64,000 bases of DNA. It comes from Leptolyngbya sp. BC1307 (lineage in GTDB: Bacteria > Cyanobacteriota > Cyanobacteriia > Phormidesmidales > Phormidesmidaceae). The notes beneath the pieces were generated by a model. It saw nothing but the letters and a program-made list of their open reading frames with translations, was not told the DNA's origin and did not search any database. Below are positions 1 to 62,261 of this stretch, one piece after another. Made by a program: the position numbers and the translations under genes. Positions within the stretch are counted from its first letter, which is position 1; each line of letters begins with the position of its first letter. The stretch covers positions 1-64,000 of the forward strand of contig NZ_NRTA01000006.1 of the NCBI RefSeq assembly GCF_002286735.1, written 5' to 3'.

Positions 1-56
1 AACGCTGCGGCATGTTTGCTCACCACTGGCGCTGGCGCAACAATCGGTAACTGCAT
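1..56 (-). CDS. possible 5' end of a gene leaving the window
   Basis: An ATG on the minus strand at 56-54 is preceded by a very good ribosome-binding site (GGAGG, six bases before the ATG). It opens a frame that runs off the left edge after about 18 residues (MQLPIVAPAPVVSKH...). Too little is visible to name a product. The plus strand is also open from base 1 to a TAG at 94-96 with a hydrophobic tail, so the alternative is the C-terminus of a plus-strand membrane protein. The Shine-Dalgarno match makes the minus-strand reading slightly preferable. Confidence 0.35.
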   Translation of the reverse strand, partial: MQLPIVAPAPVVSKHAAA

Positions 57-202
57 CCTTCACCTCCTGCTCAAAACCTTTGAACCTAACGCCTAGTCTA
101 CCTCAGACGCGATATGATGATTTTTCTCTCATGAGAGCACAACACTCAAGTAATGATCATGTTGGGAAATACCATTTAGCGTCACTAGAAGACATTGAGC
201 TT

Positions 203-3200
203 TCAATTTGTCTCGACGCCTTCTAGCGCTTGGTCAGCTACATCGTAGAGTGTTTCTAGTTTTTCTAGCGTCTCAGCTGGGGCCTGCCACAGGTTACGGT
301 TACTGGCTTCTATCATCCGCCCGACGATGTTGCGAAAGGCTTCTGGATTGGCTTCTCTTAGCCGCTTAGCCATATCTGCGTCTAGGGCGTAAGTCTGAGC
401 GGCCTGGTCGTAAACCCAATCATCTTTGAAGCCTGTGGTGCCGCCCCAGCCGACTAGCGCTGTCAGCCGTTGAGAGATCTCATAAGCTCCGCCCGAGCCC
501 TGCTGTGCCATCGCTTCAGCCCATTTGGGGTTGAGTAGCTTGGTGCGATACTCCATCCGCAGTACCTCTTCTAGCTGCCGTGGGGTGGTATCGGCTGAAA
601 AGCTCTCTACAAAGCTGGCGGTGACTCGTTTACCCTGGCGCTTTTCGGCGGCTTGTTTGAGTGCGCCTGTATTGGCGTAGTATTCTTGAATGTCGGTAAG
701 GCCGTATTCTACAGAGTCAATTTGCTGCACGATGCGGCTGGTGCTTTGCAGTAGCGTATTCAATACTTCTGGGCGAGACTGGCCTTTGTCGCTGCGGCCA
801 TAGCTGAAGGTATTGCGATCGCACCACGTCTCTCCCAATTCCTCACCTGACTCCCAATTAGAATCTATTACCCGATCATTGACCAGCGAACCGTAGTCAC
901 CTGACGGGTTAGAAAACAGCCGCGCCGACACATTTTCGACGCCTTGGGCTTTTAGCGCTAGCGCGTGCTGACGAATAAAATTCTGCTCGGGCGGCTCATC
1001 CGCTTCAGCCGCTCTTTGAAACAAATCGTCCAACAGCTCAATAATATTCACGAAACTATCGCGGAAAATCCCTGAAAGGTTTGCCAACACGTCAATTCGA
1101 GGGTGGTCAAGCTCATTTAGGGGAATCAGCTCGTACCGAACAATCCGCCCGGTGCCTTCTTTTACAGGTGCTGCGCCGACTAGCTCCAACAAAATGCCAA
1201 GAGATTCTCCTTTGGTCTTAATCGCATCCAATCCCCACAGCATCACAGCGATAGTTTCTGGATATTCGCCGGTCTCCGCCTGACTTTGTGCGATCAGTTG
1301 GTGGGCAATGGCGCGGCCCCTTTCATAAGCTGCTGGTGAGGGCATCCGGTAAGGGTCTAGGGCGTGAATGTTTCGGCCTGTGGGCAAGACCCCGGGTCCA
1401 TCTCGGAGTAGATCGCCGCCGGGCGCTGGTGGAATGTATTCACCATTTAGGCCGCGCAGCAGGTTAGTGAGTTCGTCTGTGGTTTGGGCAAGGCCGTGAC
1501 GAATATCAATTGCCTCTGTCAACAGTTCCACCGTCACCGGCTCCGAGGCAGGATAGCGACGCGCTAAAGATTCAATGTCAGGGTTGGCGGGTAGCGTGTT
1601 CTCTGAAATTTGTTCAATCAGGTCAGGAGAGAGGCGATCGCCAAAATACGCATTCAGATAGCTGCTCAGTTCCTCTGGCTCAGGCGCTTGCCCAAGCACA
1701 TGCAAGCCACTAGAGAACAGGCGATTTTCCAATACCTGTAAATACTCATAAACCGTGACAAAGTATCGCTCTATAGCTGCGCTGCTGAACAGCCGAACGT
1801 TTTCTAGCGTAAAGTCTAGTCCCTGCGCCTTTAGCTCTGCCATCGGGCAATCGGCTGCCAGGCCCGTGTCGACGATTTTCTGAAGAATAGGATCACGCAA
1901 CACCGCATTGACCTGGGGATCGGCGCGAAACTCTGCTATCAGCTCTCTCAGCAGCATCAGCTCTTTGTATAGCCCCGCTCTACCATAGGGCGGCACATTG
2001 TGAGAGATAATCAGCCCATAGCCGCGTCGCTTGGCGAGAATAGATTCTGAAGGATTGTTGGCCGCGTAGATATAGAGATTTGGCAGGTTGCCTAGCAGAA
2101 TGTCAGACCAGGAATAGCCGGTATTGCCCAAGGGCGAACCCGGCAACCATTCCACCGTGCCGTGCATACCAAAGTGAATGACCGCGTCAGCCTGAAAGTC
2201 TTTTTCTAACCAGGTATAAAAGGCCGCGTACTGCGGATGAGGGGTTAGATCTCGCTCAAACATTAGCCGCATTGGGTCGCCGGCAATGCCTAGCGGTGGC
2301 TGCACTCCAATCCATACGTTGCCAAGACGAATGCCGCCGATTAAGAAATCTTCACCCAGTGTTTTGATTCCCGTTTGGGTGAGAGACTGCCACTGCTTTT
2401 TGATTTTGGAGGTTTGGAGATATCCCAACCATGTTTCTAAAGTCTGGGCGCTGACCGCCGCTGGAATATCAGCGCCTGAGTCTTCTGCTTTTCGCTTTCG
2501 GGCAGACCATAGCCCTTCGTCATCAGCGTCTTTGACCCAATCGATCAAGGTCTCACCGTTTTCAGGGAGCTCTCCAACCTGATAGCCCTGATCTTTGAGA
2601 GCTTGCAACAGAGCCAAGAGGGATCTCGGTACGTTGAGCAGAGCGGCGGTTCCGGTAGCTCCGTAGCCAGGCGGAAAGCCGTAGACAATGATGGCGAGTT
2701 TGCGATCGCGCTTCTCCTTCCGCCTCAACGCAATCCATCGCTTCACCCTGCCCGTCAGCCGCCGCATCCGCTCCGGCACCAGATAGATCTGATCGCCCAC
2801 CAATCCGCCCAAAGGCACTGGGTCAATTGCCCCGTCTAGCTCAGGCAGCGAATAGAGCACCACACTCTGCAATCCCCCAATGCCCTGCCGCGTCCAAGAC
2901 GCAATATCTTGAATCAGCAGTGGCGCAGAGACAAAGTAGGGTACATTTTTCGCGCCCAGAATCTTTTTGGCAACGGCTACCTGCCGCCCGGCTTCCATAG
3001 AGCCCGCTGGCCCGCCTACGAGCGGAAACCCGATGGTAGAAACAATCGCGTCTACCTGTACCGCCTCTTTTGAGAGAGACGGGTACTCTGTATTTCCTAA
3101 AGCCCGCTGGGTCTGTTCGTAGGCGCTAGTCATCAGATCTCGAACGGCAACGTGACCTTCAACCCCGTTGATGAAAATTGGCAGCGGCCTCAGCCCGGCC

Positions 3201-4901: not shown

Positions 4902-5831
4902 TTATAGTTCAGCTTCAGTAAAGAAGTCTGCGTCGATGCGCTTGATATGAAAAGTTTCTTGAACACTCACGCCTACGCCGTGTTCGATCATTAACTGAGC
5001 CAATTTCTGTCCGTCAATTAATACAATTTTGCTATCCCTTAGTCTCTCGACGTATCTGATAGCGTTGTGGGTAAAAGTAGACGTTGTGATAAAGACACCT
5101 TTACGCGCACCAATGCCAGCGAGCGCGCCCTGAAAGGCTTGAATTTTCTCTCGTCCGACGGTGTTACTATTCCAGCATTTTGCCTGAATGTATATGGTGT
5201 CTAAGCCGAGCTGATCCTCTTTAATTAGCCCATCTATGCCACCGTCCGGACCGCGAGGTACACCTTCCACGTCTTGAATGCTACCGCCGTAGCCCATCGC
5301 ATGGAGTAGCTGTAGAACTAACCATTCAAAGGCGCTGGGATCAACCTGCTGCATTTTATCGAGAAGGTTATCCCTTAAATTTGCCTCGATAGTGGCATGA
5401 GCTTCTCGAATCTTTTCATCGGGGGTACTTTCGTTCGGGTTACTGCTAGTATCAGAAACCTGTTTCTCTACGTTGTTAGGTGCTGCACGATCACTAAATT
5501 CTTGGTATTCTTCAAAACGCAGCAGGTAGGCATTATCAAGAGCAGGCGGGTCGTCTGCAATGACTGCTTTGCCTCGTTCGGTAATTCTGACGTAGCCTCT
5601 GCGAGTGCTTTCTAAAAGGTTGGCTTTCCGGAGATAGGTCGTCGCCCAACCTGTGCGGTTGTCGTAGGTTGCTTGGCGTCCGCTCGGGAGTCTGATGGCT
5701 CTCTGTTCTGGGGTAAGCTGGAGCTTTTGGGCAACGCGGTCACGTAATTCTCCCACAGCGTGCTCGTTGCCGTCTTCTGCGGCTATTTTAAGCAGGGGCA
5801 GCATCAGTTCATCGTAGGTGGGTATAGACAT
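4902..5831 (-). CDS. mrr: Mrr-family restriction endonuclease
   Basis: The N-terminal ~95 residues (MSIPTYDELMLPLLKIAAE...) match the Mrr winged-helix domain. The C-terminal half carries the PD-(D/E)xK restriction fold: FEWLVLQLLHAMGYGG, then GPDGGIDGLI, then the catalytic IQAKCW, then FITTSTFTHNA. Mrr enzymes are type IV nucleases that cut modified (often methylated) DNA and act against incoming DNA. An in-frame TTG at 5858 would add nine residues, but the ATG at 5831 gives the canonical start (MSIPTYDELMLPLL), so it is preferred. There is no companion methyltransferase, as expected for type IV. The toxin-antitoxin pair lies just downstream. Confidence 0.88.
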   Translation of the reverse strand: MSIPTYDELMLPLLKIAAEDGNEHAVGELRDRVAQKLQLTPEQRAIRLPSGRQATYDNRTGWATTYLRKANLLESTRRGYVRITERGKAVIADDPPALDNAYLLRFEEYQEFSDRAAPNNVEKQVSDTSSNPNESTPDEKIREAHATIEANLRDNLLDKMQQVDPSAFEWLVLQLLHAMGYGGSIQDVEGVPRGPDGGIDGLIKEDQLGLDTIYIQAKCWNSNTVGREKIQAFQGALAGIGARKGVFITTSTFTHNAIRYVERLRDSKIVLIDGQKLAQLMIEHGVGVSVQETFHIKRIDADFFTEAEL

Positions 5832-5913
5832 AGAGAAATGAAGAATCCGAAGGGACAAGTAGATTAGATTTGGCTACCCTTTGTAATACCCTTTGTATTT
5901 TTATATCCTAAAC

Positions 5914-11690: not shown

Positions 11691-13091
11691 ATGAATAGAA
11701 GACTGAGTTTTTGGTCGAATTCCCTGATTCGCTTTTTGGGCGCTATTCTAATTCTCGGCTTATTGGGCTCAGTTATCTGGTTTGTGCCAAAAGTACAGGT
11801 AAGTTCGATGTCTTCTCCGACAGACCGAATGCAGGCGGAGACAGCTGCGCGTGACGTTATAGTCAAAGCGATAGGCGGACTTTTAGTTTTTGTTACTGCC
11901 TTTGTTAGCGTGGAGAACCTGCGAGCCACTGAAGAGAAGCAAATTGCAGAACGCTTTTCAAAAGCAGTAGAGATGCTAGGCCACGAAGAAAACGTTCATA
12001 TTCGTCTTGGCGGAATATATGCTTTAGAGCGTATTGCTATGGATTCCAGAAAAGACCACTACCCTGTTATGCAGGTGTTAGCTGCATTCATTAGGACAAA
12101 AACATCTGTAGTGCGCGAACAAGTCTCTGATACAAAGCAACAAGACCTGCATCAATATGAGGAATTTTCATCTGCTAGAGATCATCATGAACAAGAGGAA
12201 GAGGAACGCTTCGGTGGGCATTACGGAAATTACGAAGATATGTGTGCTGGCGAATATGAGTACTTCATAGGAGCCCTAAATGAGGGTTACGTTCCCAATC
12301 ACTCAGTTGATGTGCAAGTAGCAGTATCCGCAATAGGCAGACGAAATCTTAGCGATAGTAGCTCGTATTTTCTCGACCTAAGTAAGACGCTTTTAGAAGG
12401 AATTGCTTTTGAAGGCAACTACGAAAACGTAAACTTTTACAAGGCTCATTTCAAAGATTGTATATTCGGAACTCAATCAGGAGAAAAGTACACGAGCTTT
12501 CGAGACGATGATTTTAGGGAAGCTATTTTTGAGAAGGTAGAGTTTAAGCACTCTACTTTTAGAAAAACCCGCTTTAATAACTCCGTATTTGTAAGCACTA
12601 CCTTTAAAGACACCGATCTTACAGGGGCAGATCTAACAAAGACGCAATTTTCTGGAGGGACGAAAATTTGTGGATGTAAGTTTATTAAAACCAACTGGAC
12701 TGAGAGTAGTATAGGGGGCGAGATAAGAGCACCAAAGTTTGCATACTTTACGGGAAAGAGCGAAGTAAGGGACACAGATTTTAAGGATGCAAAGTTTACG
12801 AAAGCGAATCTTGTCAACGCCTTATTCAAGAAAGGTAGCTATCAGGGGACAAGCTTTGAGAAAGCAGCTCTCAGCGGTGTCACTTTCGAAGACGTTAACT
12901 TGAGAAACTCTAGCTTCATCGGAGCGCAGATTGGGCATGAATCAAAGTTATATATGGGCTACGAACAGTACGGGAGTCGAAAAAGATATCAGGAAAACTA
13001 CTCTGATGAAGTTAGCTTTGTAGACGCGGGTATAAAAAGAGCAGATTTAGAAAAAGGGAAAGCAATTATCATTGAAGCTAATTTCAATTAA
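11691..13091 (+). CDS. membrane-anchored pentapeptide-repeat protein
   Basis: The 466-residue protein has two hydrophobic helices (about residues 10-33 and 55-76). A helical block follows: EEKQIAERFSKAVEMLGHEENVHIRLGGIYALERIAMDS. The latter half is made of A(D/N)LxX-type pentapeptide repeats (FREAIFEKVEFKHSTF, TDLTGADLTKTQF, FTKANLVNALF), which fold as a right-handed beta-helix. The same 'membrane pair + RLGGIYALERI + pentapeptides' plan occurs in many bacteria and is of unknown function. Codon use looks more AT-rich than in the neighbours. Its TAA stop (13089-13091) lies directly against the IS end at 13092. Confidence 0.8.
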   Translation: MNRRLSFWSNSLIRFLGAILILGLLGSVIWFVPKVQVSSMSSPTDRMQAETAARDVIVKAIGGLLVFVTAFVSVENLRATEEKQIAERFSKAVEMLGHEENVHIRLGGIYALERIAMDSRKDHYPVMQVLAAFIRTKTSVVREQVSDTKQQDLHQYEEFSSARDHHEQEEEERFGGHYGNYEDMCAGEYEYFIGALNEGYVPNHSVDVQVAVSAIGRRNLSDSSSYFLDLSKTLLEGIAFEGNYENVNFYKAHFKDCIFGTQSGEKYTSFRDDDFREAIFEKVEFKHSTFRKTRFNNSVFVSTTFKDTDLTGADLTKTQFSGGTKICGCKFIKTNWTESSIGGEIRAPKFAYFTGKSEVRDTDFKDAKFTKANLVNALFKKGSYQGTSFEKAALSGVTFEDVNLRNSSFIGAQIGHESKLYMGYEQYGSRKRYQENYSDEVSFVDAGIKRADLEKGKAIIIEANFN

Positions 13092-41993: not shown

Positions 41994-43223
41994 ATGTTTT
42001 TACGCTTGCGTCGGTTTGTTCGTCGCTTTTTTAACCGGTCTCGCCGGGTTAATCATGAGCCGATCAACAAAGTCAGCCTGATTGTCATCATTCTGGTTGA
42101 CCTGTTCATTTTGTTCAATGTGTTCATGGGGCTAGACGACATTAGCCGCTGGCCGATTAGTCCGGCGCAGGCGTATCCCTGTCACAGTGAATGGCAGAGC
42201 TACCGCGAGAACACTTCAGAAAGCAAGGCTTACGACGCTGTTAGCCGCACTTTCAATGATCAGGGAATGCCGCTACAGGCTTTTTATGCGTCTGCGGGCG
42301 ATCAGCACCTGGGTCAGGTCTCTGAAGTTTGCTTGCAGTATGGAGCGGCAAGCGATGCGATCGCTTCTCAGCCTGACCAGGCGATCGCCCAGCGCATCAA
42401 CGACACCCAGGCAGAGATTAACTCTTTTGCCGCCAAGAACAGCTCCATTCGCCAGCAGTACGACTCGACGCTGCTAGAAGAGATTGCCGGACAGCCGCGC
42501 GACCAGTCTATCAACACTGTAGAGGCGGCTCAGGCCCGGCGAGAGATTGAGCAGAATAATGCGGCGATCGCTCAACGTCAGCAGACGCTTACAACGCTAA
42601 AGGCAGAGCTAGTGAATGCGCCAGCCAGCCAAACCTTTTTAACGCTGCTGGCTGACGACGGTCAGTTTGAACAGGTGGATCGGGGCCAGCGGCGAGCGGC
42701 GTTTTGGTACCCCAGCATTCAGCTATTGTTTCAGGGGCTGTTTTTACTGCCGCTAATCTTTATCGCTTCGGCGGTACATCGCTTTGCTCAGCGGCGTGAC
42801 TATGGCTATGTAGCGCTGATTAGCTGGCATCTGCTGGTAATCTTTTGCATTCCTCTGATCTGGAAGATATTCGAGTTTCTTCAAGTTGGGTTTCTCTTTG
42901 AACTACTTGCTCAACTCGTAGAAGTGCTGTTTGGCAGTCTGCGTTTTCTGTTGAACTATCTGCAAATCTTGTTGATTCCGCTGATTGGGTTTGGCCTGAT
43001 TAAGTTCTTGCAAAGGTTTGTCTTTAACACTCGGTTGCAAGCTGCCAATCGTATCCAAAACATGCAGTGTGTGCGCTGCGCCAAAAAGCTGCGGACTGGT
43101 GATCTGCACTGCCCTCATTGCAGCTATCCGCAGTATCACGACTGCACCAACTGTCACAATCTCACCTATCAGCACTTACCCTATTGCCACCACTGCGGCA
43201 CCAACCAAGCCTTAGATTTATGA
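41994..43223 (+). CDS. multispan membrane protein with C-terminal zinc ribbon
   Basis: The ~409-residue protein has an N-terminal basic stretch (MFLRLRRFVRRFFNRSRR) and a first helix (VSLIVIILVDLFILFNVFMG). A polar middle rich in helical repeats follows (about 60-220), then three or four more helices (for example IQLLFQGLFLLPLIFIASAV). A cysteine-rich tail ends it: CVRCAKKLRTGDLHCPHCSY, CTNCHNL, YCHHCG. The tail is a double zinc ribbon. I know the pattern from cyanobacterial genomes but not a function. The ATG at 41994 has GGAG five bases ahead; a TTG at 41946 is less likely. It overlaps the end of the Roco gene by 6 bases. Confidence 0.75.
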   Translation: MFLRLRRFVRRFFNRSRRVNHEPINKVSLIVIILVDLFILFNVFMGLDDISRWPISPAQAYPCHSEWQSYRENTSESKAYDAVSRTFNDQGMPLQAFYASAGDQHLGQVSEVCLQYGAASDAIASQPDQAIAQRINDTQAEINSFAAKNSSIRQQYDSTLLEEIAGQPRDQSINTVEAAQARREIEQNNAAIAQRQQTLTTLKAELVNAPASQTFLTLLADDGQFEQVDRGQRRAAFWYPSIQLLFQGLFLLPLIFIASAVHRFAQRRDYGYVALISWHLLVIFCIPLIWKIFEFLQVGFLFELLAQLVEVLFGSLRFLLNYLQILLIPLIGFGLIKFLQRFVFNTRLQAANRIQNMQCVRCAKKLRTGDLHCPHCSYPQYHDCTNCHNLTYQHLPYCHHCGTNQALDL

Positions 43224-46175
43224 AGAGGTGGGATAGATCTCTTTGATGTGATCTTTGCAGAGCCACATGACATCGCCTTCGGGGGTGGTGGTGCGGGTGA
43301 GGTTGCCCCAGGTTTGGGCGCGGTCATTCTTTATCAGTTCGCTGTAGTCAGGCGCTGAGACGCCGAGCCAGGGGCCAGCGACGGGAGTGACGTATTTTAA
43401 GATGCCGAAGAGTCGATTGAGATGAGGCGTCATCTCCTGTAGCCACTGCTTGGGGTTGTCGATGGGGTAGAGACCGCCTTCCTGAACGGGATGGAAGCAG
43501 CCGGGATGCTCGCAGTAAAGCTGGAGGTTGATGCGCTGTGAGCCGATGTCTTTTTGCCAAATAGCGCGGTCATCGGGGCGCAAGACAAATACGCTGGGGC
43601 AGGGAGATTCGATTTGCTTTTGCACGGTGCGGATTTCTCGAAGGACTTCGCGCTGCACTAACTCTCTTAGCTCGGTGAAGCCTTGTTCCACTGAGTCTTG
43701 TAGAGCATCGAAGTTACCTTGGTTTGATGCTTGGAGTCTATCAATTTTAGCGATGACGGCATCTTGGGTCGTGTAATGAAGGCCAAATAATAGCTGTGTT
43801 ACTGAAATAATTTCCAGGCAGTTAGGGCACTCAATGGTTTCTCGGGGTGGGATGCGCTCAAGGCGCATGGTGAGATTGGCGTAGTCAAACTCGTGGATGC
43901 AGTTGGTGTTTTCTGGGTCGGGGCAGGGCAGTAGACGGGTAACTTTGAGGCCGGGGTAGCGGCGGAGGGTTAGCTCTAGTCCTTCGCGTAGCACGTCAAA
44001 GAAGTTGTGGGGGACGGGGCCGCGAACGGTGAGGTGTAGATAGTCGGCGTTGGTGCTTTCGTCGCGCAGTGTGCGGACGAGGCCGAGGTGTTTGGCATCT
44101 CGGTCTTGAAACAATACGCCTGTGCGCCAGTGAAGGCCGCGCCGCTCGCCCTGGTCGATAGTGAAGCGATGCTGACGAGCGATAAACCAGGTAGGAATGC
44201 CGGGAAGAATCTCGCTGACTTGAAACTTCATGGAAATCTCTTTGCAGTTGGCTTCCTGCTGCTTTTGTTGCCAGAGAGGTTGGAAGGCGGGCGGCTCGAA
44301 GGGCAAGCACTCTACGACCAGGCTGATGTCGGGACTTTCGCGGGTGCGATAGGAGAGATCGAATCGCTCCATAAGTCGTAGAAAGAAGTCAGGAAGGCCG
44401 GGTGGGAGGTCTGCCCAGACCCGGTCCATACACTGGCGAGTGAAGATGCCGTTGCTTTTGATCACTTCCTCAGCGGTGAGTACTTTGCTGATGTGCTGGG
44501 TGACCCACTGGGGCTTGAGAATGATCAAATCGTTAACTTCATCGTCGTCTTGAAAAAATAAGATGTCGCCCAGTTCATGGAGCCACTTTGTCAGAACGGG
44601 CTGGCTATCTTCAGAAACTTTTGCTTTTGTCATGGCGGCCCAGAATTGCTGAGGCGTTGCTTGCTTACCCTCGTTTTGGCGGATGGCTTTAGCAAATTTC
44701 AGCCAAGTGGTAGGCCAGATTTCACCCATGAGCGGTAGCTCGGCGGCAGTGTTGATGATGGCCTGCTGTAATTCTTTAATACCTTCCCCTGTTTTGTTAC
44801 TTGCTTCGCAAAGACCGGTGATTTGTGGGAACTGTTGCTTTAGGTCTGATAGGGGCAAATCGGCATGGCGCTCGTCTATCCAGGTAGCGACCAGAATGAC
44901 GGGGGCGTCCGGGGCGTTAGCGTGAATGGTTTTGAGCCAATAGATTAGCTTACCTTGCTCGAAGCCGACGCCAGCGTTGAAGACGAGAAGAAAGAGGGAG
45001 CGGTTGGTGAGGAAAAACTTGTGGGTGGCATGGTAGATTTCTTGACCGCCGAAGTCCCAGGTGTTGAGATTCATGGTGATATCAGGCTCTACGGAATGAG
45101 GCAGATTTAGTGTCTCGATCTCAATGCCGTGGGTGGAAGACTGCTGTGCCTCAAATAATTCGCCTCGTAGGGCGCGGAGTAGGGAGGTTTTGCCGGCCCG
45201 GCCTTCTCCAACAACTAGAAGTTTTGAAATCCATTGACGTTCGCCGTCCTTCCATTGCTCCCGCAGATAGGTAAGGATTGCTTTATTTCCTTGTTCGATG
45301 ATTTCAGGTGATGGATAGGCAAGGTCAAGGTTTTGGTGTAGATAAAGCTCTGTGAGATTGGCGAGGTTGCCCAACTCCCTTGGCACCGCCGTCAGTCGAT
45401 TTTGGTCGAGGTGAAGCTCTGTGAGATTGGCGAGGTTGCCTAACTCCTTTGGCACCGCCGTCAGTCGATTTTGGTCGAGGTGAAGCACTGAGAGATTGGC
45501 GAGGTTGCCTAACTCCTTTGGCACCGCCGTCAGTTGGTTTTGGTCGAGGTGAAGCACTGAGAGATTGGCGAGGTTGCCTAGCTCCTTTGGCACCGCCGTC
45601 AGTTGATTTCGGTCGAGGTGAAGCCGCACAAGATTGGCGAGGTTGCCTAACTCCCCCGGCACTGCTGTCAGTTGATTTCCGTCAAGGTAAAGCTGTATGA
45701 GATTAGCGAGGTTGCCCAGCTCCTTCGGCAACGCCATCAGTTGATTTTGGGAGAGGTAAAGCCATATAAGATTAGCGAGGTTACCCAACTCCCTCGGCAC
45801 CGCCGTCAGTTGATTTTCCCAGAGGGAGAGCACTGTAAGATTAGCGAGGTTACCCAACTCCCTTGGCACCACCGTCAGTTGATTTTCCCAGAGGGAGAGC
45901 ACTGTAAGATTAGCGAGGTTACCCAACTCCCTCGGCACTGCCGTCAGTTGATTTTGGCAGAGATAAAGCACTGAGAGATTGGCAAGGTTACCCAGCTCCC
46001 TCGGCACTGCCGTCAGTTGATTCTGGGAGAGATAAAGGTTTGTAAGATTGGCCAGATTGCCCAACTCCTTCGGGACTGTGTGTAGCTCTAGCCCTGACAG
46101 GTTTAGAGAAGTTCCGTTTGTTTTGAACGCTTGCTGAATTCGTCGTTCTGCTTCGGCAGTTTTGGATGATGACAT
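43218..46175 (-). CDS. Roco protein (LRR-Roc-COR GTPase)
   Basis: The ~985-residue protein starts MSSSKTAEAERRIQQAF. About eleven 23-residue leucine-rich repeats (xAVPRELGNLANLxxLxLxxNQL) fill residues ~25-285. The Roc GTPase has P-loop LLVVGEGRAGKTSLLRALRG near 320, switch NTWDFGGQEIYHATH near 373 and the base-recognition stretch ILVATWIDER near 430. A COR region (to about 720) and a C-terminal unknown part with CxxC follow (IECPNCLEI; CEHPGC...). Roco proteins are dimeric GTPase scaffolds; bacterial partners are rarely known. An in-frame start at 46256 would add 27 unconserved residues. The LRR coding DNA is nearly uniform and probably recombines. Confidence 0.9.
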   Translation of the reverse strand: MSSSKTAEAERRIQQAFKTNGTSLNLSGLELHTVPKELGNLANLTNLYLSQNQLTAVPRELGNLANLSVLYLCQNQLTAVPRELGNLANLTVLSLWENQLTVVPRELGNLANLTVLSLWENQLTAVPRELGNLANLIWLYLSQNQLMALPKELGNLANLIQLYLDGNQLTAVPGELGNLANLVRLHLDRNQLTAVPKELGNLANLSVLHLDQNQLTAVPKELGNLANLSVLHLDQNRLTAVPKELGNLANLTELHLDQNRLTAVPRELGNLANLTELYLHQNLDLAYPSPEIIEQGNKAILTYLREQWKDGERQWISKLLVVGEGRAGKTSLLRALRGELFEAQQSSTHGIEIETLNLPHSVEPDITMNLNTWDFGGQEIYHATHKFFLTNRSLFLLVFNAGVGFEQGKLIYWLKTIHANAPDAPVILVATWIDERHADLPLSDLKQQFPQITGLCEASNKTGEGIKELQQAIINTAAELPLMGEIWPTTWLKFAKAIRQNEGKQATPQQFWAAMTKAKVSEDSQPVLTKWLHELGDILFFQDDDEVNDLIILKPQWVTQHISKVLTAEEVIKSNGIFTRQCMDRVWADLPPGLPDFFLRLMERFDLSYRTRESPDISLVVECLPFEPPAFQPLWQQKQQEANCKEISMKFQVSEILPGIPTWFIARQHRFTIDQGERRGLHWRTGVLFQDRDAKHLGLVRTLRDESTNADYLHLTVRGPVPHNFFDVLREGLELTLRRYPGLKVTRLLPCPDPENTNCIHEFDYANLTMRLERIPPRETIECPNCLEIISVTQLLFGLHYTTQDAVIAKIDRLQASNQGNFDALQDSVEQGFTELRELVQREVLREIRTVQKQIESPCPSVFVLRPDDRAIWQKDIGSQRINLQLYCEHPGCFHPVQEGGLYPIDNPKQWLQEMTPHLNRLFGILKYVTPVAGPWLGVSAPDYSELIKNDRAQTWGNLTRTTTPEGDVMWLCKDHIKEIYPTSS
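45330..46100 (-). repeat. 69-bp LRR-coding tandem repeats (about 11 units)
   Basis: Within the Roco gene a 69-base unit (23 codons) is repeated about eleven times with few changes; the segment TAGCGAGGTTACCCAACTCC and close variants recurs once per unit. Adjacent units at 45780-45940 are almost identical over their whole length. Such low divergence points to recent duplication or gene conversion and predicts copy-number variation between strains. Confidence 0.9.
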
Positions 46176-46422
46176 GGGCGTGCAATCACAAAGGCGCAGG
46201 AAACTGGACTGTATCTGGGAAACTAACTGTGGCTGCGGGCTACTTAATGAGAGCAAAGCGGCCCTAATTATCTACCACTTTTACGCTTCTTATGGCTTGG
46301 AGGCAAGGGGCAATGCAGCCGCTTAATGACATCTTCAGTTTAGCTGCATTGGCCTGCCTGCACTAGGAAAGTCGTAAAAGCATGGGAACCCCGGTTATTG
46401 CATTGACAAAAGTTGCTGCAAG

Positions 46423-53043: not shown

Positions 53044-55143
53044 ATGACTGACGCAGTACGAATTTTGATGTGCCCTCCCCACCACTACGATGTGGACTAT
53101 GTGATTAATCCATGGATGGAGGGCAATATCCATCGCTCATCGCGGGAGCGCGCTGAAACCCAGTGGAATCAGCTCTATCAGGTGCTGACGGGCTACGCCA
53201 CGGTAGATCTGGTAAAGCCACAGCCGGGCTGGCCCGATATGGTGTTCGCAGCTAACGCCGGACTGGTACTCGGTGATCATGTTGTCCTCAGCCGGTTTTT
53301 GCATCCTGAGCGGCAGGGAGAAGAGCCCTACTTTGAGCAGTGGTTTGAAGAAAACGGATTTACCGTACACAAGCTGCCTAAGAGCCTGCCTTTTGAAGGC
53401 GCGGGTGACGCCCTGCTAGATCGGGCCGGGAGATGGCTTTGGGCAGGCTATGGGTTTCGATCAGAGTTAGATTCTCACCCTTACCTGGCAAAGTGGCTAG
53501 ACGTAGAAGTGCTGTCGCTACGGCTGGTAGACCAGCGGTTTTATCACTTAGACACCTGCTTTTGCCCGCTCACCGATGGCTACCTGCTGTATTATCCGCC
53601 CGCCTTTGATGCCTATTCCAACCGCCTGATTGAAATGCGGGTGCCCGCCGAGAAGCGAATTGCCATTAGTGAAGTCGATGCGATTAACTTTGCCTGCAAC
53701 ACGGTGAATGTAGATCGGGTTGTGGTGATGAATCAGGCTAGCGATGAGCTGAAGCAGCAGCTGGGCGATCGCGGCTTTACCGTCGAAGAAACGCCGCTGA
53801 CTGAGTTTCTTAAAGCGGGCGGCGCGGCCAAATGCCTGACGCTGCGAGTGACCGAACCCCGGCAGGATTCTCCCCAAGCCTCCACCGTGCAGAGCCGAGT
53901 AATTCACTTAGAGGGCCATCTGCTCGATTCGGGTTTGGTGAACCGGGCGCTGGATACGATTGTCACCGGGGGCGGCAGCTTTCAGGTGCTGAATTTTAAC
54001 CTGGGCGAACAGCGGCAGGATCATTCATCGGCTGAAGTCAAGGTCTCTGCGCCAGGCCAAATGGTGATGGATGACATCATGGGCCAGCTGATTGACCTCG
54101 GGGCGGTGAGTTTGCCGCAGGAGGCAACGCCTGCCGCTTTAGAGGCGGTGGTGCAAGACGGGGTCGCACCCGATGACTTCTATGTGACGACGATCTATCC
54201 GACTGAAGTGCTGATCGGCGATCGCTGGTTTAAGATAGAAGGTCAGCGGATGGATGGGGCGATCGCCATCACCCGCAGTGCCAATGGGCTAGTGGCCCGC
54301 TGCAAGCTGCTGCGAGATTTGCAGGTAGGCGAAGAAGTCGTCGTCGGGAGTAAAGGCATCCACACGCTGCGGAATGAGCCTTCTCTGAAGCAAAAAACGG
54401 ACGACTTTAGCTTTATGGGGGCGGGCGTATCGAGCGAGCGCCGGGTAGAGCTAGTGGTCGAGCAAATTGCCTGGGATCTGCGGCGAATTCGCGATCGCGG
54501 CGGCAAAGTCGTGGTCACCGCTGGCCCGGTTGTCATCCATACCGGCGGCAGTGAGCATTTGAAAAAGCTGATCCAGGGGGGCTATGTGCATGCGCTGCTT
54601 GGCGGCAATGCGATCGCCGTTCACGACATTGAGCAGTCGATGATGGGCACCTCGCTAGGCATGGATATGAAGCGCGGCGTCTCGGTTCACGGCGGGCATC
54701 GCCACCATCTGAAGGCGATTAACACTATTCGTCGCTATGGCAGTATTGCCGCAGCGGTAGAGCAGGGCGCACTCACCAGCGGCGTCATGTATGAATGCGT
54801 TAAAAACAACGTGCCCTTTTCCTTAGCGGGCTCCATTCGCGATGACGGCCCCCTGCCCGACACCAAAATGAACTTACTAGAAGCGCAGTCAGATTACGCC
54901 CGCTTAATTGAAGGGGCCGACCTGATCTTAATGCTCTCGACCATGCTGCACTCAATTGGGGTGGGCAATATGACGCCTGCCGGGGTGAAGATGGTGTGCG
55001 TCGATATTAATCCGGCGGTGGTGACAAAATTGAGCGATCGCGGCTCAGTCGAATCGACGGGCGTCGTCACCGACGTGGGTCTGTTTTTAAGTCTGCTAGT
55101 TCAGCAACTCAGCAAGCTCACAGGGCAATACGCTCAGATCTAA
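53044..55143 (+). CDS. agrE: arginine-guanidine-removing enzyme (AgrE/ArgZ type)
   Basis: The 699-residue protein is the two-part cyanobacterial enzyme. The N-terminal guanidine-modifying domain has MCPPHHYDVDYVINPWMEGN, PDMVFAANAGLVLGDHVVLS, PFEGAGDALLDRAGRWLWAG and the probable nucleophile region INFACNTVNVDRVVV near residue 217. It converts arginine to ornithine, CO2 and ammonia in the characterised homologues. The C-terminal LOR/SDH-type domain resembles ornithine cyclodeaminase (VVVTAGPVVIHTGGSEHLKK, GGNAIAVHDIEQSMMGTSLG), which makes proline from ornithine. It acts in arginine and cyanophycin breakdown, the same broad pathway as the isoaspartyl peptidase 4 kb upstream. Confidence 0.93.
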   Translation: MTDAVRILMCPPHHYDVDYVINPWMEGNIHRSSRERAETQWNQLYQVLTGYATVDLVKPQPGWPDMVFAANAGLVLGDHVVLSRFLHPERQGEEPYFEQWFEENGFTVHKLPKSLPFEGAGDALLDRAGRWLWAGYGFRSELDSHPYLAKWLDVEVLSLRLVDQRFYHLDTCFCPLTDGYLLYYPPAFDAYSNRLIEMRVPAEKRIAISEVDAINFACNTVNVDRVVVMNQASDELKQQLGDRGFTVEETPLTEFLKAGGAAKCLTLRVTEPRQDSPQASTVQSRVIHLEGHLLDSGLVNRALDTIVTGGGSFQVLNFNLGEQRQDHSSAEVKVSAPGQMVMDDIMGQLIDLGAVSLPQEATPAALEAVVQDGVAPDDFYVTTIYPTEVLIGDRWFKIEGQRMDGAIAITRSANGLVARCKLLRDLQVGEEVVVGSKGIHTLRNEPSLKQKTDDFSFMGAGVSSERRVELVVEQIAWDLRRIRDRGGKVVVTAGPVVIHTGGSEHLKKLIQGGYVHALLGGNAIAVHDIEQSMMGTSLGMDMKRGVSVHGGHRHHLKAINTIRRYGSIAAAVEQGALTSGVMYECVKNNVPFSLAGSIRDDGPLPDTKMNLLEAQSDYARLIEGADLILMLSTMLHSIGVGNMTPAGVKMVCVDINPAVVTKLSDRGSVESTGVVTDVGLFLSLLVQQLSKLTGQYAQI

Positions 55144-57786: not shown

Positions 57787-58662
57787 ATGCAGGTTGGAAT
57801 ATTAGGGACAGGGCTGATGGGTGCGCCGATGGCTTTACAGCTGCACCAGGCGGGCTTTGAAGTGACGGCCTGGAACCGGACGCCTGAGAAGCTCGCGCCC
57901 TTACAGCAGGCAGGCATGACGACGGTCGGGTCGGCGGCAGAGGCGATTGCGTCCTCCCCAGTTACCATCACCATGCTAAGCGATGCCGCCGCTATTGAAT
58001 CGGCTGTACTCGCTGAACCCGCCGCGCTAGAAGGCCGTACTATCCTGCAAATGGGCACGATTGCCCCGGCAGAAAGCCGTGAGCTAGATCAAAAAATTCG
58101 AGCAGCGGGCGGGGAATATCTGGAAGCACCGGTACTCGGCAGCATTCCTCAGGTGAAAGCGGGTTCGCTGATCGTGATGGTAGGGTCAACGACTGAGCAG
58201 TACGACCAGTGGCTACCCGTACTGAAGTGCTTCGGGCCAGCGCCTCAATGGATGGGCGCAGTGGGGACGGCAGCCGCCACTAAGCTGGCGATGAATCAGC
58301 TGATCGGCACGCTAACGGCAGCATTTTCGATGAGTCTGAGCCTGGTTCAGCAGGAGGGGCTAGACATTGATAAGTTTATGGACATCGTGCGGGAGAGTGC
58401 GCTGTACGCGCCGACCTTTGACAAAAAGCTAGCGCGGATGTGCGATCGCAATTTCACCAATCCTAACTTTCCCACCAAGCATTTGCTCAAAGACATGAAC
58501 CTGTTTGTCAAAGCGGCCCAAGATCAGGGGATTGACGCGACAGTAGCAGCAGGGGTGAGTCAGATGGCAGAAAGCGCGATCGCTCAGGGCTTAGCCGACC
58601 AGGACTATTCGGCTATCTATAGCGCGGTCAATCCTCCATCGGATCAACCTGAATCGACCTGA
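57787..58662 (+). CDS. 3-hydroxyisobutyrate dehydrogenase-family oxidoreductase
   Basis: The 291-residue protein has the Rossmann start VGILGTGLMGAPMALQLHQA, WNRTPEKL, EYLEAPVLGSIPQVKAGSLI and the catalytic lysine block AATKLAMNQLIGTLTAAFSM. The family reduces or oxidises short beta-hydroxyacids and semialdehydes (for example glyoxylate or succinic semialdehyde reductases). The substrate cannot be decided from sequence. The gene end overlaps the caspase-EAL gene by 35 bases (convergent). Confidence 0.92.
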   Translation: MQVGILGTGLMGAPMALQLHQAGFEVTAWNRTPEKLAPLQQAGMTTVGSAAEAIASSPVTITMLSDAAAIESAVLAEPAALEGRTILQMGTIAPAESRELDQKIRAAGGEYLEAPVLGSIPQVKAGSLIVMVGSTTEQYDQWLPVLKCFGPAPQWMGAVGTAAATKLAMNQLIGTLTAAFSMSLSLVQQEGLDIDKFMDIVRESALYAPTFDKKLARMCDRNFTNPNFPTKHLLKDMNLFVKAAQDQGIDATVAAGVSQMAESAIAQGLADQDYSAIYSAVNPPSDQPEST

Positions 58663-60949
58663 TTAGAAATTTCCGCTTTTCTGAGGTCAGCCGGTATATT
58701 TTGGGTTCGGCTTTGCCGATGATATATCCCTGCGCATAGGCCACCCCTAGCTTATGCAGTTGGTGCAGTGTGATCGGTGACTGTTCATCTAGCCCTTCGA
58801 CAACGATTTTTGCCAGATGGAGTTCGCTAGATTTGGTCACTATTTCGCGCACAAAGCGAATGATGATTTCGGCTTGCTGCTGATGTAAAATTTCTCGGTC
58901 AATTTTGACATGGGGCGGCCTGAGCCCGGCTAGCCGTGAGACGGATGCATAGCCAACGCCGAAATCATCAATGCCAAACTGAATTCTCAGCTCCCGAACA
59001 TACTGTATGAGCTTTGCTTTAAAGGCTTCGAGCGGAAACTTTAAGCGAACACCATCCTGATAGGCTGGCAGGTCAGCTTTTTCGGAAATCTCTAAAACTA
59101 GACTGTCAGATGGCAGCAGCGTATAGCCGTCTCTATCGGGCGTGGTAATTTCACGAACGGCCTTAAAATAGGCCGGTCGCATCAGTGATTCTGGATAGAC
59201 ATTGACCGACAGCGGGATGATCTCATTGACTCTTCTATTCCGGCGGGCATTGAGACCGGCCTGACGATAGCTCGTAGCCGCTAGCTTGAGCAGTTGCATA
59301 TCTAGCTGAACGATAAACCGACTGCCCCACAGCTCTGCGGCTTCAAAGAGATCAACCGGGGCTCTCAGGCTGAGCGGATCTCTTGCCAAAGCTTCCCAGC
59401 CAGTAATGGCAACTTTTCTCAGGTCAAGAATAGGTTCAAAATAGATGACTATTTGGGAGAGGCGATCGCAAAAAAGCTCAAATCTGCGGTTATAAAACGA
59501 AAGCGGTAAAAATCCGTGATCACGCTTAAGGTCATCTAGAATGCTCGCTTCTACCCTTGAAGGCTGCCAGTGAGGATAGGCATGAAAGCACTGAGCGGCG
59601 CTATAGAAACTGGTGATAATTTTCGTACAGGCATCGTTCAAATAGTGGGAATCTTTTGACAAGCCGCAAACGCCTATGAATTCGGGATCATCCGACGAAT
59701 CTAGAGGAATTAGGATAAATGCTTTGGCCGCCTCTGTTGTTTCGTCATAGACTATACGGTATGTGCCGTGATGACCAGCCATAAAAACAGATTCGCTAGC
59801 AATACTCGCGAGCACTTCGGCTTTGAGCATTTCGGTATAGTCACCGCTGTCTATCTCCCTGCTTAATCTACTTTGCGCTTTGAGCTGCCAGCTATTTTGC
59901 CCCTCAGATTGGCTCATTAAAAAGACCCAATCTGCATTGGAAGCCAGCCGAATTAGCTCAAGCGTATCGCCTGTTGTCACAGCGCTAGAAACGTCGCCAG
60001 ATCGACTGTGAGAAAAACAATAATTCTTAAGCTGTTCTATCAATCTCTCGATCAGCGGCTTGAGCGGCAGCAACAAACTAGGGATGGCATTATAAGCTGT
60101 GTCTTCTTCCGATCTACTCTCTAACAGAACCTCTCCTAGATCTATCTCTTGTTTTTTGGTATCAGGTGATTGATCGCCTTTAGCCCTCGTTTTAGATAGG
60201 ATAATTTCCCAGCCTTCATCTTCCCAGCCTTTATCTTTGACAATAACAAGTTTAGGCGTCACATCAGAAATGTCTTCCTGAACCTTTTTAGTCGCATATT
60301 CATGTAGCTCTAAAATAGAAACTTGCCCGTCTTGATTCAAGTCTCCAGCGCCTGTTTCGATACCTTCAATTAAATGGCGGGTGTAGATAGAGAGACCTGC
60401 ACGCTTATGTTCACAGGAGTACTGAGTAGCGTTAGATGACGCTAAGACAACCCTGCCCTCGGCACCGAGCTGCCCTTGCAGATCAAATGAGCCATCATCT
60501 TTCGCCTGTAGCGCCGGATCAAAGGCACCGCTAAAGCAGCAGTCTAAAATGATGGCCTGTTGCCTGGCACGGCTATAGGCCATAATCTCATGAATAAACT
60601 GCGCGGGTACTGCAGTTGACCGGCTGAGACCTCCTTTAGCATTTTTGCGAGTGATGCGAGTGGCAAAATAAAGTTGGTTTTTTTCGTCTTTAAGCCCGTG
60701 TCCAGAAAAAAACAGCAGAACGAGATCATCCTGGCTACAGCCTGTGAACAGCGTCTCGATTTCATCTTTCATCGATTGACAATCGGGATCAGCTAAGACT
60801 TTTACCTGATCAAAGCCTCCTAAGTCGGGGGCTATCAACACTCTGTACATAGCTTCCACATCGTTTGTGGCAGCAGGCAGCGGACTGAGTGCTCGGTCGT
60901 GCGCTCGGTCGTATTTACTTACCCCAATCAACAACGCTTTCTTTGCCAT
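58628..60949 (-). CDS. caspase-like (C14) peptidase fused to EAL phosphodiesterase
   Basis: The ~773-residue protein starts MAKKALLIGVSKYDRAHDRA. The caspase-like domain (1-220) has His in LLFFSGHGLKDEKNQLYF near 81, Cys in AIILDCCFSGAFDPAL near 136, and an EF-hand-type loop DLNQDGQVSILE near 205. A GAF-like region (about 300-460) follows. The C-terminal EAL domain has GWEALAR near 516, LSVNVYPE, VLEISEKAD, IDDFGVGYASVSR near 659, KIDREI, VVEGLDE and AQGYIIG, so the residues needed for c-di-GMP cleavage are present. This is a rare pairing of a protease with c-di-GMP signalling. The ATG at 60949 is preferred over an in-frame start at 60970. Confidence 0.88.
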   Translation of the reverse strand: MAKKALLIGVSKYDRAHDRALSPLPAATNDVEAMYRVLIAPDLGGFDQVKVLADPDCQSMKDEIETLFTGCSQDDLVLLFFSGHGLKDEKNQLYFATRITRKNAKGGLSRSTAVPAQFIHEIMAYSRARQQAIILDCCFSGAFDPALQAKDDGSFDLQGQLGAEGRVVLASSNATQYSCEHKRAGLSIYTRHLIEGIETGAGDLNQDGQVSILELHEYATKKVQEDISDVTPKLVIVKDKGWEDEGWEIILSKTRAKGDQSPDTKKQEIDLGEVLLESRSEEDTAYNAIPSLLLPLKPLIERLIEQLKNYCFSHSRSGDVSSAVTTGDTLELIRLASNADWVFLMSQSEGQNSWQLKAQSRLSREIDSGDYTEMLKAEVLASIASESVFMAGHHGTYRIVYDETTEAAKAFILIPLDSSDDPEFIGVCGLSKDSHYLNDACTKIITSFYSAAQCFHAYPHWQPSRVEASILDDLKRDHGFLPLSFYNRRFELFCDRLSQIVIYFEPILDLRKVAITGWEALARDPLSLRAPVDLFEAAELWGSRFIVQLDMQLLKLAATSYRQAGLNARRNRRVNEIIPLSVNVYPESLMRPAYFKAVREITTPDRDGYTLLPSDSLVLEISEKADLPAYQDGVRLKFPLEAFKAKLIQYVRELRIQFGIDDFGVGYASVSRLAGLRPPHVKIDREILHQQQAEIIIRFVREIVTKSSELHLAKIVVEGLDEQSPITLHQLHKLGVAYAQGYIIGKAEPKIYRLTSEKRKFLIRSIQVDPMED

Positions 60950-61187
60950 CTCCGCTGACCCACCCCGCAATAAAACCCTGCGCCGCTGCGCTCTAAGGCT
61001 TTATCTTACTGGTATTCGCCTAGTCAGTGCCAGAGAGATGTGTTGCGAACATAAAGCTTTGCTAAAGAGGATCTGCTGCAAGGTGAGTTCGAACTGTGAG
61101 CCTCTGGTCACATGTTATTTTTAGCAATTTCCTATTTACCTAATTCTATTTTAGGGCCTATTTTTGGTCCATTTTTGGGGCCTATTT

Positions 61188-62261
61188 CTAGGGCTCTGGC
61201 AAAAAACGCTTCAGCAGGCTCTGCCAGTCTGACTCACTTTGCTCTTGCAAAACCTGAGCGCTAATGGTCTCTGACATAGGCGAGTCTTCGGTCATAGCAA
61301 ACACGTAGCGACGAGCCTGCAGGCCAGTAGACTGCACGGCGAGCCGGTTTTTGAAAGATTTTTTGTTGAGGTAGCGCAGCAGCGCCGCATCATAAACGAA
61401 CGCATTGAGCTGGCCTTGATCGACTGCGTTTAGCCCATCTGTTGGCGTTTTGACTGGCTGAAATGAAATCTGCTGCTGCTTTAATGCCTCAGCGGCACTA
61501 GAGCCTTCTATACTGCCGACCTTAATCACTTTGAGATCGGCAAACTGAGTGAGCTGACTGCTTTGGTCTTGCGTTAAGACCGAGGTAATAGTTGCCGTCA
61601 GGCTAGCGATAATGCCCATAGCCACGAGCATCCACAGTAGGGCGACGATTCGTCCGCCCACAGAGATCGGGGCTTTGTCTCCGTAGCCGATGGTCGTCAT
61701 GGTCACCCCAGCCCACCAAAAACTATCCCAAATGCCCGATCTTGGCTTGCTATCGAACATTTCTTCGTTAGGCCCGCGTTCAAACAGCCAAACAATGACG
61801 CCCACAATCAATAACAGTCCCGATAGCCACAGGCAAATCCAGAGAAAACGCGGCGATAGTACGGAGCCTACGGTATCCAGCAGGCTTTGCCGCCGGGTTT
61901 GGGCAATGCCTAGAGAGGAGATGTAGTAGCTCTGGGTAAAGTCAACCTGCTGCTCTGCTTCAGCCGGGTGAGGCGTCTGCCACTCATACTGAATGTCAAG
62001 TTCTTCGGCAACTTCTCGCCAGAGATGTACGCCAATGCCATCCCAATCGCTGCCGCTATCAGTGGAGGTCTCAATGGCAAAGGGCGGCGTATGGCTGACG
62101 CCCACTTTCATCCGAGTCGATGCGTCTGTCGTGGGTGCGTCTGTCGCGGGCTGGCCTACAGCAGGTAACGAGCAAGCAATCCAGCTGGCTAATAAGGTGA
62201 GGCTCCAGCAGAGGGGCTGAGCGATCGCCTTAGTAGTGGGCACTAAGCCACCAGCCGGCAC
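61188..62261 (-). CDS. GluR0-like ligand-gated ion channel
   Basis: The ~357-residue protein has a signal-like N-terminus (LCWSLTLLASWIACSLPAVG), then S1 (MKVGVSHTPPFAIETS, GIGVHLWREVAEELDIQYEW). Next come a helix, a pore loop with the K+-type filter VTMTTIGYGDKAPIS near 190, another helix, and S2 (LKVIKVGSIEGSSAAEALKQ, AFVYDAALLRYL). This is the plan of prokaryotic glutamate receptors such as GluR0. S1 seems to lack the usual stretch between the first beta-alpha unit and the xxVDFTQSYY block (about 35 residues), so ligand binding may be changed. The start is GTG (62261 or 62243), uncertain. Confidence 0.85.
   Translation of the reverse strand: MPAGGLVPTTKAIAQPLCWSLTLLASWIACSLPAVGQPATDAPTTDASTRMKVGVSHTPPFAIETSTDSGSDWDGIGVHLWREVAEELDIQYEWQTPHPAEAEQQVDFTQSYYISSLGIAQTRRQSLLDTVGSVLSPRFLWICLWLSGLLLIVGVIVWLFERGPNEEMFDSKPRSGIWDSFWWAGVTMTTIGYGDKAPISVGGRIVALLWMLVAMGIIASLTATITSVLTQDQSSQLTQFADLKVIKVGSIEGSSAAEALKQQQISFQPVKTPTDGLNAVDQGQLNAFVYDAALLRYLNKKSFKNRLAVQSTGLQARRYVFAMTEDSPMSETISAQVLQEQSESDWQSLLKRFLPEP

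Follow-up and report, generated by a model that had tools for sequence, protein, structure and literature searches.

The DNA analyzed here is a stretch of 64,000 nucleotides (nt) from the cyanobacterium Leptolyngbya sp. BC1307 (contig NZ_NRTA01000006.1, positions 1 to 64,000; hereafter the window), and our subject is a gene on its minus strand (58628..60949) that joins a caspase-type protease, through a conserved middle domain, to an EAL domain, presumably a phosphodiesterase of cyclic di-guanosine monophosphate (c-di-GMP). The gene is one uninterrupted open reading frame (ORF) of 773 amino acids (aa). Its ATG at 60949 aligns with the start codons of two close full-length relatives, an in-frame TTG lies seven codons upstream at 60970, and its 3' end overlaps a convergent dehydrogenase gene (57787-58662) by 35 nt. 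The domain search proposed by an earlier, sequence-only reading of this DNA recovered both enzymes: Peptidase_C14 at aa 3-225 (60275..60943, on the minus strand like all features of the gene; 69.4 bits, Pfam cut-off 21.4) and EAL at aa 498-746 (58712..59458; 91.8 bits, cut-off 31.3), with scores so far over the cut-offs that the matches stand well beyond chance. Between them lie a linker that is variable by alignment and substitution rate (aa 236-290, 60080..60244) and the middle domain (aa 290-497, 59459..60082), whose fold is unproven; middle and EAL domains together are called the module below.

Searching other cyanobacteria for the same architecture revealed a family and not an isolated fusion. 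Genome searches took in the phylum (386 genomes), the window's order (63) and, with the module as query, a second family, f7 (217). In the phylum scan, 46 of 386 genomes matched at E<=1e-20, a lower bound with two candidates scored per genome; within f7, 53 of 217 genomes held a module match at E<=1e-25. A scan of genome contigs yielded two full-length relatives, from Cyanocohniella sp. LLY (66%) and Leptothoe kymatousa TAU-MAC 1615 (53%). Judged from the fetched loci, a type-A caspase, as in the window protein, is joined to the middle and EAL domains in 25 genomes (4/63 of the order, 21/217 of f7), and a type-B caspase, approximately 29-30% identical to the query caspase, is joined to the module in 3/217 f7 genomes. 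Caspase-module fusions of both types thus occur in 28 genomes with a patchy distribution (4/63 and 24/217); L010 and L042 were taken as one genome, as were L011 and L060, and each was counted once. Active-site counts and trees rest on all type-A fusions but L082 (24 of 25), and L125 and L126, broken or cut, were also set aside. Among phage records, seven showed weak EAL-region or caspase matches, and nine plasmid records matched, none in either set covering more than 80% of the query. One plasmid, unnamed12 of Tolypothrix sp. PCC 7712 (NZ_CP063797.1, 35256-36467), carries an EAL module in a stretch without annotated features; this module is cut by the record start, no caspase is annotated in bases 1-3000, and restriction endonuclease and recombinase genes lie across the record start from it.

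The caspase head also matches NCBIfam NF047832, 'caspase, EACC1-associated type' (163.1 bits, cut-off 140), and the PADLOC 'caspase' model PDLC02987 (E=3e-14). The intact catalytic pair read earlier from the sequence was borne out: the dyad of peptidase family C14 is in place as His84 of an SGHG motif (60698..60700) and Cys138, the second Cys of DCCFSG (60536..60538), which we take from the usual caspase motif to be the catalytic one. The His is present in 24/24 type-A and 3/3 type-B fusions, and the Cys in 23/24 and 3/3, the exception having Ser. This member, L108:6220-8505 (G555), is a pseudo-caspase (NCSFSA, Cys to Ser) with a complete EAL domain. The EF-hand-type loop noted in the sequence-only reading is present as a pattern match at aa 203-214 (DLNQDGQVSILE, 12 residues, 60308..60343), but Pfam EF-hand gives no match in the window protein at E<=1. 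The same pattern occurs in 24/24 type-A and 0/3 type-B fusions. Since related caspases with a different C-terminus mostly share it (33 of 44 distinct sequences; 35 of 46 rows, which contain two identical pairs), we regard it as a trait of the caspase and reject Ca2+ as an input special to the caspase-EAL fusion. The suggested tie to Ca2+ rests on this common loop, and orthocaspase activation is spoken of as calcium-independent in the accessible text of PMC5756287.

In the EAL domain, all nine key positions are present (E519, N583, E620, E623, D661, D662, K682, E718 and Q740; presumed catalytic from the usual EAL motifs), in agreement with the earlier reading, and the nine residues are complete in 44/44 modules having a complete EAL. 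By its residues, the window EAL is presumably an active c-di-GMP phosphodiesterase. The middle domain is likewise conserved across the family, and its profile matches module proteins only among 478 ORFs; as an input domain, it belongs to no recognized family. Its earlier description as GAF-like gained no support: Pfam GAF gave 0 matches at E<=1 among 36 aligned sequences of the domain, the best hit of the profile among solved structures was not significant (a dUTPase, E 0.28), a profile comparison with GAF_2 domains from the window's genome (14 of them) reached 15% probability over 26 columns, and two structure predictions were of low confidence (mean predicted local distance difference test scores of 43 and 36). 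The sole GAF-like trait is the predicted helix/strand order H-H-E-E-H-H-E-E-E-H, but this comes from a low-confidence model, and a GAF identity is unproven.

The module occurs under further heads, namely EAD4 (L122), CHAT (L123, L124) and TIR (L127), the last matching ThsB1 of Thoeris with 186 bits. These modules have diverged (29-36% identity); nevertheless, a middle-domain profile built without any type-B, EAD4, CHAT or TIR protein recovered all four kinds at E 7e-8 or better (2e-43 for EAD4, 4e-15 and 1e-10 for CHAT, 7e-8 for TIR). The module also stands alone in proteins of 408-528 aa, of which 13 loci were placed in the module tree. This tree (44 modules) requires six changes of the type-A caspase label, at least four of them forced by well-supported branches, and places the window protein within a group of 13 fused proteins (support 99/99); a caspase-domain tree (73 domains) requires eight changes of the fused type-A label, at least two of them forced. 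One neighbor cluster, c1, is common to three type-A fusions (L101, L102 and L104) and eight stand-alone modules, indicating that the acquisition or the loss of the caspase took place in situ. Furthermore, of the 15 stand-alone modules whose surroundings were fetched, three (G505 and G507, from a single genus, and G605) have a related caspase gene next to them on the same strand; the two of these caspases scanned by Pfam both carry GUN4. Apart from EACC1, no neighbor cluster is common to most fused loci.

An EACC1-like gene lies upstream on the same strand in 8/24 type-A and 0/3 type-B fusions, at a distance of 10-65 nt and with a length of 122-134 aa where measured; for L064, L067, L078 and L086 this check is based on 540-654 nt of DNA. 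The association extends beyond the fusions. In the order, 41 of 54 listed caspase places have an EACC1-like gene upstream (at 16-1285 nt) and the EACC1-like profile matches in 39/63 genomes, and in f7 it matches in 159/217. Pfam EACC1 (PF19953) is the sole family matched at E<=0.01 by the 24 aligned upstream proteins (6/24, best 1.3e-4). The two EACC1-like members with scores shown fall below the Pfam cut-off (23.6 bits), and PF19953 exceeds it in 0/292 cyanobacterial genomes. Profiles of the proteins in EACC1 position from cyanobacteria and actinobacteria match with 97% probability over 104 columns; the actinobacterial one comprises four proteins, of which three are encoded by 5' genes and the fourth is the N-terminal portion of an EACC1-caspase ORF; one of the four is over and three are below the Pfam EACC1 cut-off, and L198, without a full EACC1 frame, was left out of the comparison. 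That ORF, L197:2578-4947 of Nonomuraea gerenzanensis, holds an EACC1-like part and a caspase in one 789-aa frame. For the window copy, the 238-nt gap upstream of the fusion gene (60950..61187) contains no EACC1-like gene: no open frame runs through it and tblastn finds no match. A decayed EACC1 gene in the gap was rejected because of the same lack of a through frame and of any match to EACC1-like proteins. The window copy is thus an EACC1-type caspase and not a complete EACC1 system, there being no EACC1 gene directly 5'; its caspase type links it to the conflict systems of PMC7159879, whose accessible text also predicts a membrane helix in EACC1.

Some loci show other states of this pairing. 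Upstream of L103, a partial EACC1-like match (46% over 65 aa) may be an EACC1 remnant. At L204:4957-6057 (G492), the caspase is missing and an EACC1-like stretch directly adjoins an EAL module that is truncated, as if an internal part had been lost. At G215:C62, G392:C18, G428:C7, G444:C550, G393:C654, G413:C215, G405:C95, G426:C95 and G390:C128, open frames of about 490-545 aa contain a weak EACC1-like match (E 5e-8 to 5e-4) and may represent a further architecture with an EACC1-like part.

Both enzymes appear to be maintained. Across nine partly overlapping pairs of relatives, the ratio of nonsynonymous to synonymous change (dN/dS; synonymous change was near saturation in some pairs) was 0.05-0.19 for the caspase, 0.03-0.20 for EAL, 0.07-0.27 for the middle domain and 0.16-0.78 for the linker, pointing to purifying selection on both halves, and the linker had the highest value of the four segments in 8/9 pairs. 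In the alignment of fusions, this linker has no K/R position conserved throughout; as regards a self-cleavage site, we took this on its own as no evidence either way.

The window gene itself was probably acquired recently, or its locus rearranged. Its G+C content at third codon positions (GC3) is 0.469, the second lowest of 28 ORFs, against a mean of 0.587 (standard deviation 0.057) for the 27 other window ORFs. The dehydrogenase neighbor occurs in all six other genomes of the genus; within 8-15 kb around it, neither the caspase-EAL gene nor the channel or ATPase was found in 6/6, and none of the six holds a module at E<=1e-25. The channel is the upstream neighbor (61188-62261, minus strand), of ligand-gated type with Lig_chan and Ion_trans_2 over the cut-off and SBP_bac_3 weak. 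Elsewhere in the window lie an ArgZ-type arginine dihydrolase (53044-55143, plus strand), which is found near the dehydrogenase in three of the six genus relatives (L164, L165, L168), a pentapeptide-repeat protein whose GC3 is the lowest among the 28 ORFs (11691-13091, plus strand; 0.392), an Mrr-type restriction endonuclease, also of low GC3 (4902-5858, minus strand; 0.476), and a 1012-aa LRR-Roc-COR (Roco-type) protein (43218-46256, minus strand).

We favor, tentatively and at somewhat less than an even chance, the reading that the protein is a conflict-system caspase of the EACC1 kind whose regulatory half is an active 'trigger' phosphodiesterase, the module, through which a change in c-di-GMP leads to proteolysis and thereby to arrest or death. 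The recurrent module would fill the C-terminal position of a conflict or programmed-death protease, where it would both bind and hydrolyze c-di-GMP. Together with a signal at the middle domain, it would hold or release the N-terminal protease, such that a change in c-di-GMP, or in another cyclic dinucleotide, would be turned into proteolysis and cell arrest or death. In the eight fusions with an EACC1-like upstream protein, this short partner may provide a second input, and the window copy would act alone. Catalytic activity, direction of coupling, substrate and a role in death or phage defense are all putative here; coupling to c-di-GMP is a sensible supposition. Several observations point this way. 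Effectors make up most of the module's heads (caspases of types A and B, CHAT and a Thoeris-type TIR), with EAD4 as an adaptor, as expected of a shared regulator, and the simplest reading is an effector head with that regulator attached. Moreover, Pfam recognized the C-termini of five of 12 related caspases scanned (one FGE-sulfatase, one TPR, one TPR plus GUN4 and two GUN4), and we count these recognition or binding folds in favor of a regulatory module. Active trigger phosphodiesterases that sense c-di-GMP do exist, so a sensory role is open to an EAL enzyme, according to the accessible part of PMC5052742.

Other observations weigh against gating of the caspase by the module. The EACC1-like profile matches nowhere in the window's genome, 15 fusions of 24 besides the window copy also stand without an EACC1 partner in the DNA covered, and of the order's 61 EACC1-like matches, 19 have no listed caspase nearby. 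The CHAT and TIR versions of the module are distant (29-34% identity, on long branches), the C-terminal domain went unrecognized in seven of the 12 related caspases scanned, and structure prediction gave no model usable for judging the caspase/EAL interface. No biochemical or phenotypic datum was found for any family member. In the literature, as far as the accessible text goes, PMC7159879 interprets the domains at the C-terminus of EACC1 caspases as effectors, and PMC5756287 favors homeostatic orthocaspase roles over cell death.

The main rival turns the arrow around: an activated caspase, or the CHAT, TIR or EAD4 input, would free or switch on the phosphodiesterase, draining c-di-GMP until the cell stops or dies. 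We consider this unlikely, though well worth weighing, and the present evidence does not choose between it and gating. The strict conservation of the EAL residues in all 44 modules suits an output enzyme equally well as a sensor; it persists even in L108, which lacks the catalytic Cys, and the module also occurs on EAD4 and alone, without an attached protease. The fast-evolving linker would fit too, and PMC7159879 proposes, in its accessible text, that the constant caspase of EACC1 systems deploys C-terminal effectors by auto-proteolysis. In Anabaena, c-di-GMP below approximately 50% of the wild-type level is lethal through CdgR (PMC13075795, accessible text), and a released phosphodiesterase is therefore a plausible death effector in cyanobacteria. 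On the other side, the recognized C-termini of related caspases are binding folds and not enzymes, the linker lacks the throughout-conserved K/R that a fixed self-cleavage site might show, and caspase, CHAT and TIR are already effectors, which would make a second effector on each of them unusual.

Two further explanations seem less probable again. The protein may be an ordinary regulatory multidomain protease or phosphodiesterase of housekeeping stress signaling, a fusion of abundant cyanobacterial domains, with no part in death or defense. Caspases and EAL domains are both common, with six PF00656 places (query counted) and seven EAL-region matches besides the query in the window's genome, the c1 cluster is a conserved chromosomal place, and the homeostatic roles favored in PMC5756287 would accord with this. 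However, the repeated pairing with an EACC1 gene, EAD4, TIR, CHAT and two caspase types is hard to call chance, and the patchy spread and the low GC3 of the window copy suit conflict genes; we regard a housekeeping role as improbable. More improbable still, in our view, is that the module degrades a defense-type cyclic nucleotide instead of c-di-GMP, as a built-in timer or off-switch for the signal of caspase, CHAT and TIR. Ring nucleases of type III CRISPR systems provide an analogous off-switch. A single module on several effector heads resembles the SAVED sensors of cyclic-oligonucleotide-based antiphage signaling systems (CBASS), and the ThsB1-like TIR head also speaks for this option; yet at the nine presumed catalytic positions the module does not differ from ordinary c-di-GMP EAL enzymes, and the neighbors of the fusions are mostly unshared, genes for nucleotide cyclases or SAVED not having been searched for by family.

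Beyond gating in this one protein, we consider a bolder form, which we think distinctly unlikely at present: the mobile EAL module may be a shared cyclic-dinucleotide sensor-and-timer of cyanobacterial immunity, mounted on caspase, CHAT, Thoeris-type TIR and EAD4 in the manner of SAVED and destroying its own signal. If true, c-di-GMP, or a cyclic dinucleotide made on infection, would set the time of cell suicide.

Regarding novelty, the suggestion that the fusion had not been described stands only in part. Table 1 of PMC8283722 tallies EAL with 2/473 and GGDEF with 1/473 cyanobacterial orthocaspases, undiscussed in the accessible text, where WD40 (26%) heads the list of accessory domains. The accessible text of PMC5756287 mentions GGDEF and not EAL, EAL and GGDEF do not occur in PMC7475262 and PMC6426788, and EAL as a whole word is absent from the main text of PMC7159879 and from PMC8195603. 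Among the matches listed in a search of the open-licence literature by title and abstract start, no paper on a caspase-EAL fusion appeared besides PMC8283722. What is new relative to the accessible text of that paper is the module on several conflict-protein heads and its link to EACC1. As the c-di-GMP level decides between life and death in Anabaena (PMC13075795, accessible text), the fusion could link such a threshold to programmed death. With the module found on caspase, CHAT, TIR and EAD4, and with EACC1-like/caspase pairs common, c-di-GMP signaling becomes a candidate part of conflict systems. For the caspase homologs of cyanobacteria, a c-di-GMP phosphodiesterase that seems to be active and sits in one chain with the caspase is a concrete candidate for a trigger or an output.

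Among known systems, the SAVED effectors of CBASS place one nucleotide-recognizing module on alternative heads such as TIR domains and proteases; the EAL module differs from SAVED in fold and would hydrolyze its ligand. Compared with stand-alone EAL phosphodiesterases that carry an input domain, the module also occurs headless, but the window copy is fused to a caspase and its input domain belongs to no recognized family. In E. coli PdeR and PdeL, an active EAL enzyme is proposed as a c-di-GMP sensor controlling a partner (PMC5052742, accessible part), much as we propose here, except that the partner would be a protease in the same chain and the coupling is putative. With the orthocaspases of PMC8283722, the window protein shares the C14 His/Cys dyad and a C-terminal accessory domain, whereas the module, its other heads and the EACC1 link are not described in the accessible text of that work. 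In the two-gene EACC1 conflict system (Kaur et al. 2020, PMC7159879), an N-terminal EACC1-associated caspase is likewise followed by a variable C-terminal domain; relatives of the window protein share the upstream EACC1 homolog (eight of 24 fusions and, in the order, 41 of 54 caspase places), and the window copy does not. The accessible text describes that system as prevalent among actinobacteria and as occurring sporadically in proteobacteria, whereas here EACC1-like matches were found in 159 of 217 genomes of a cyanobacterial family.

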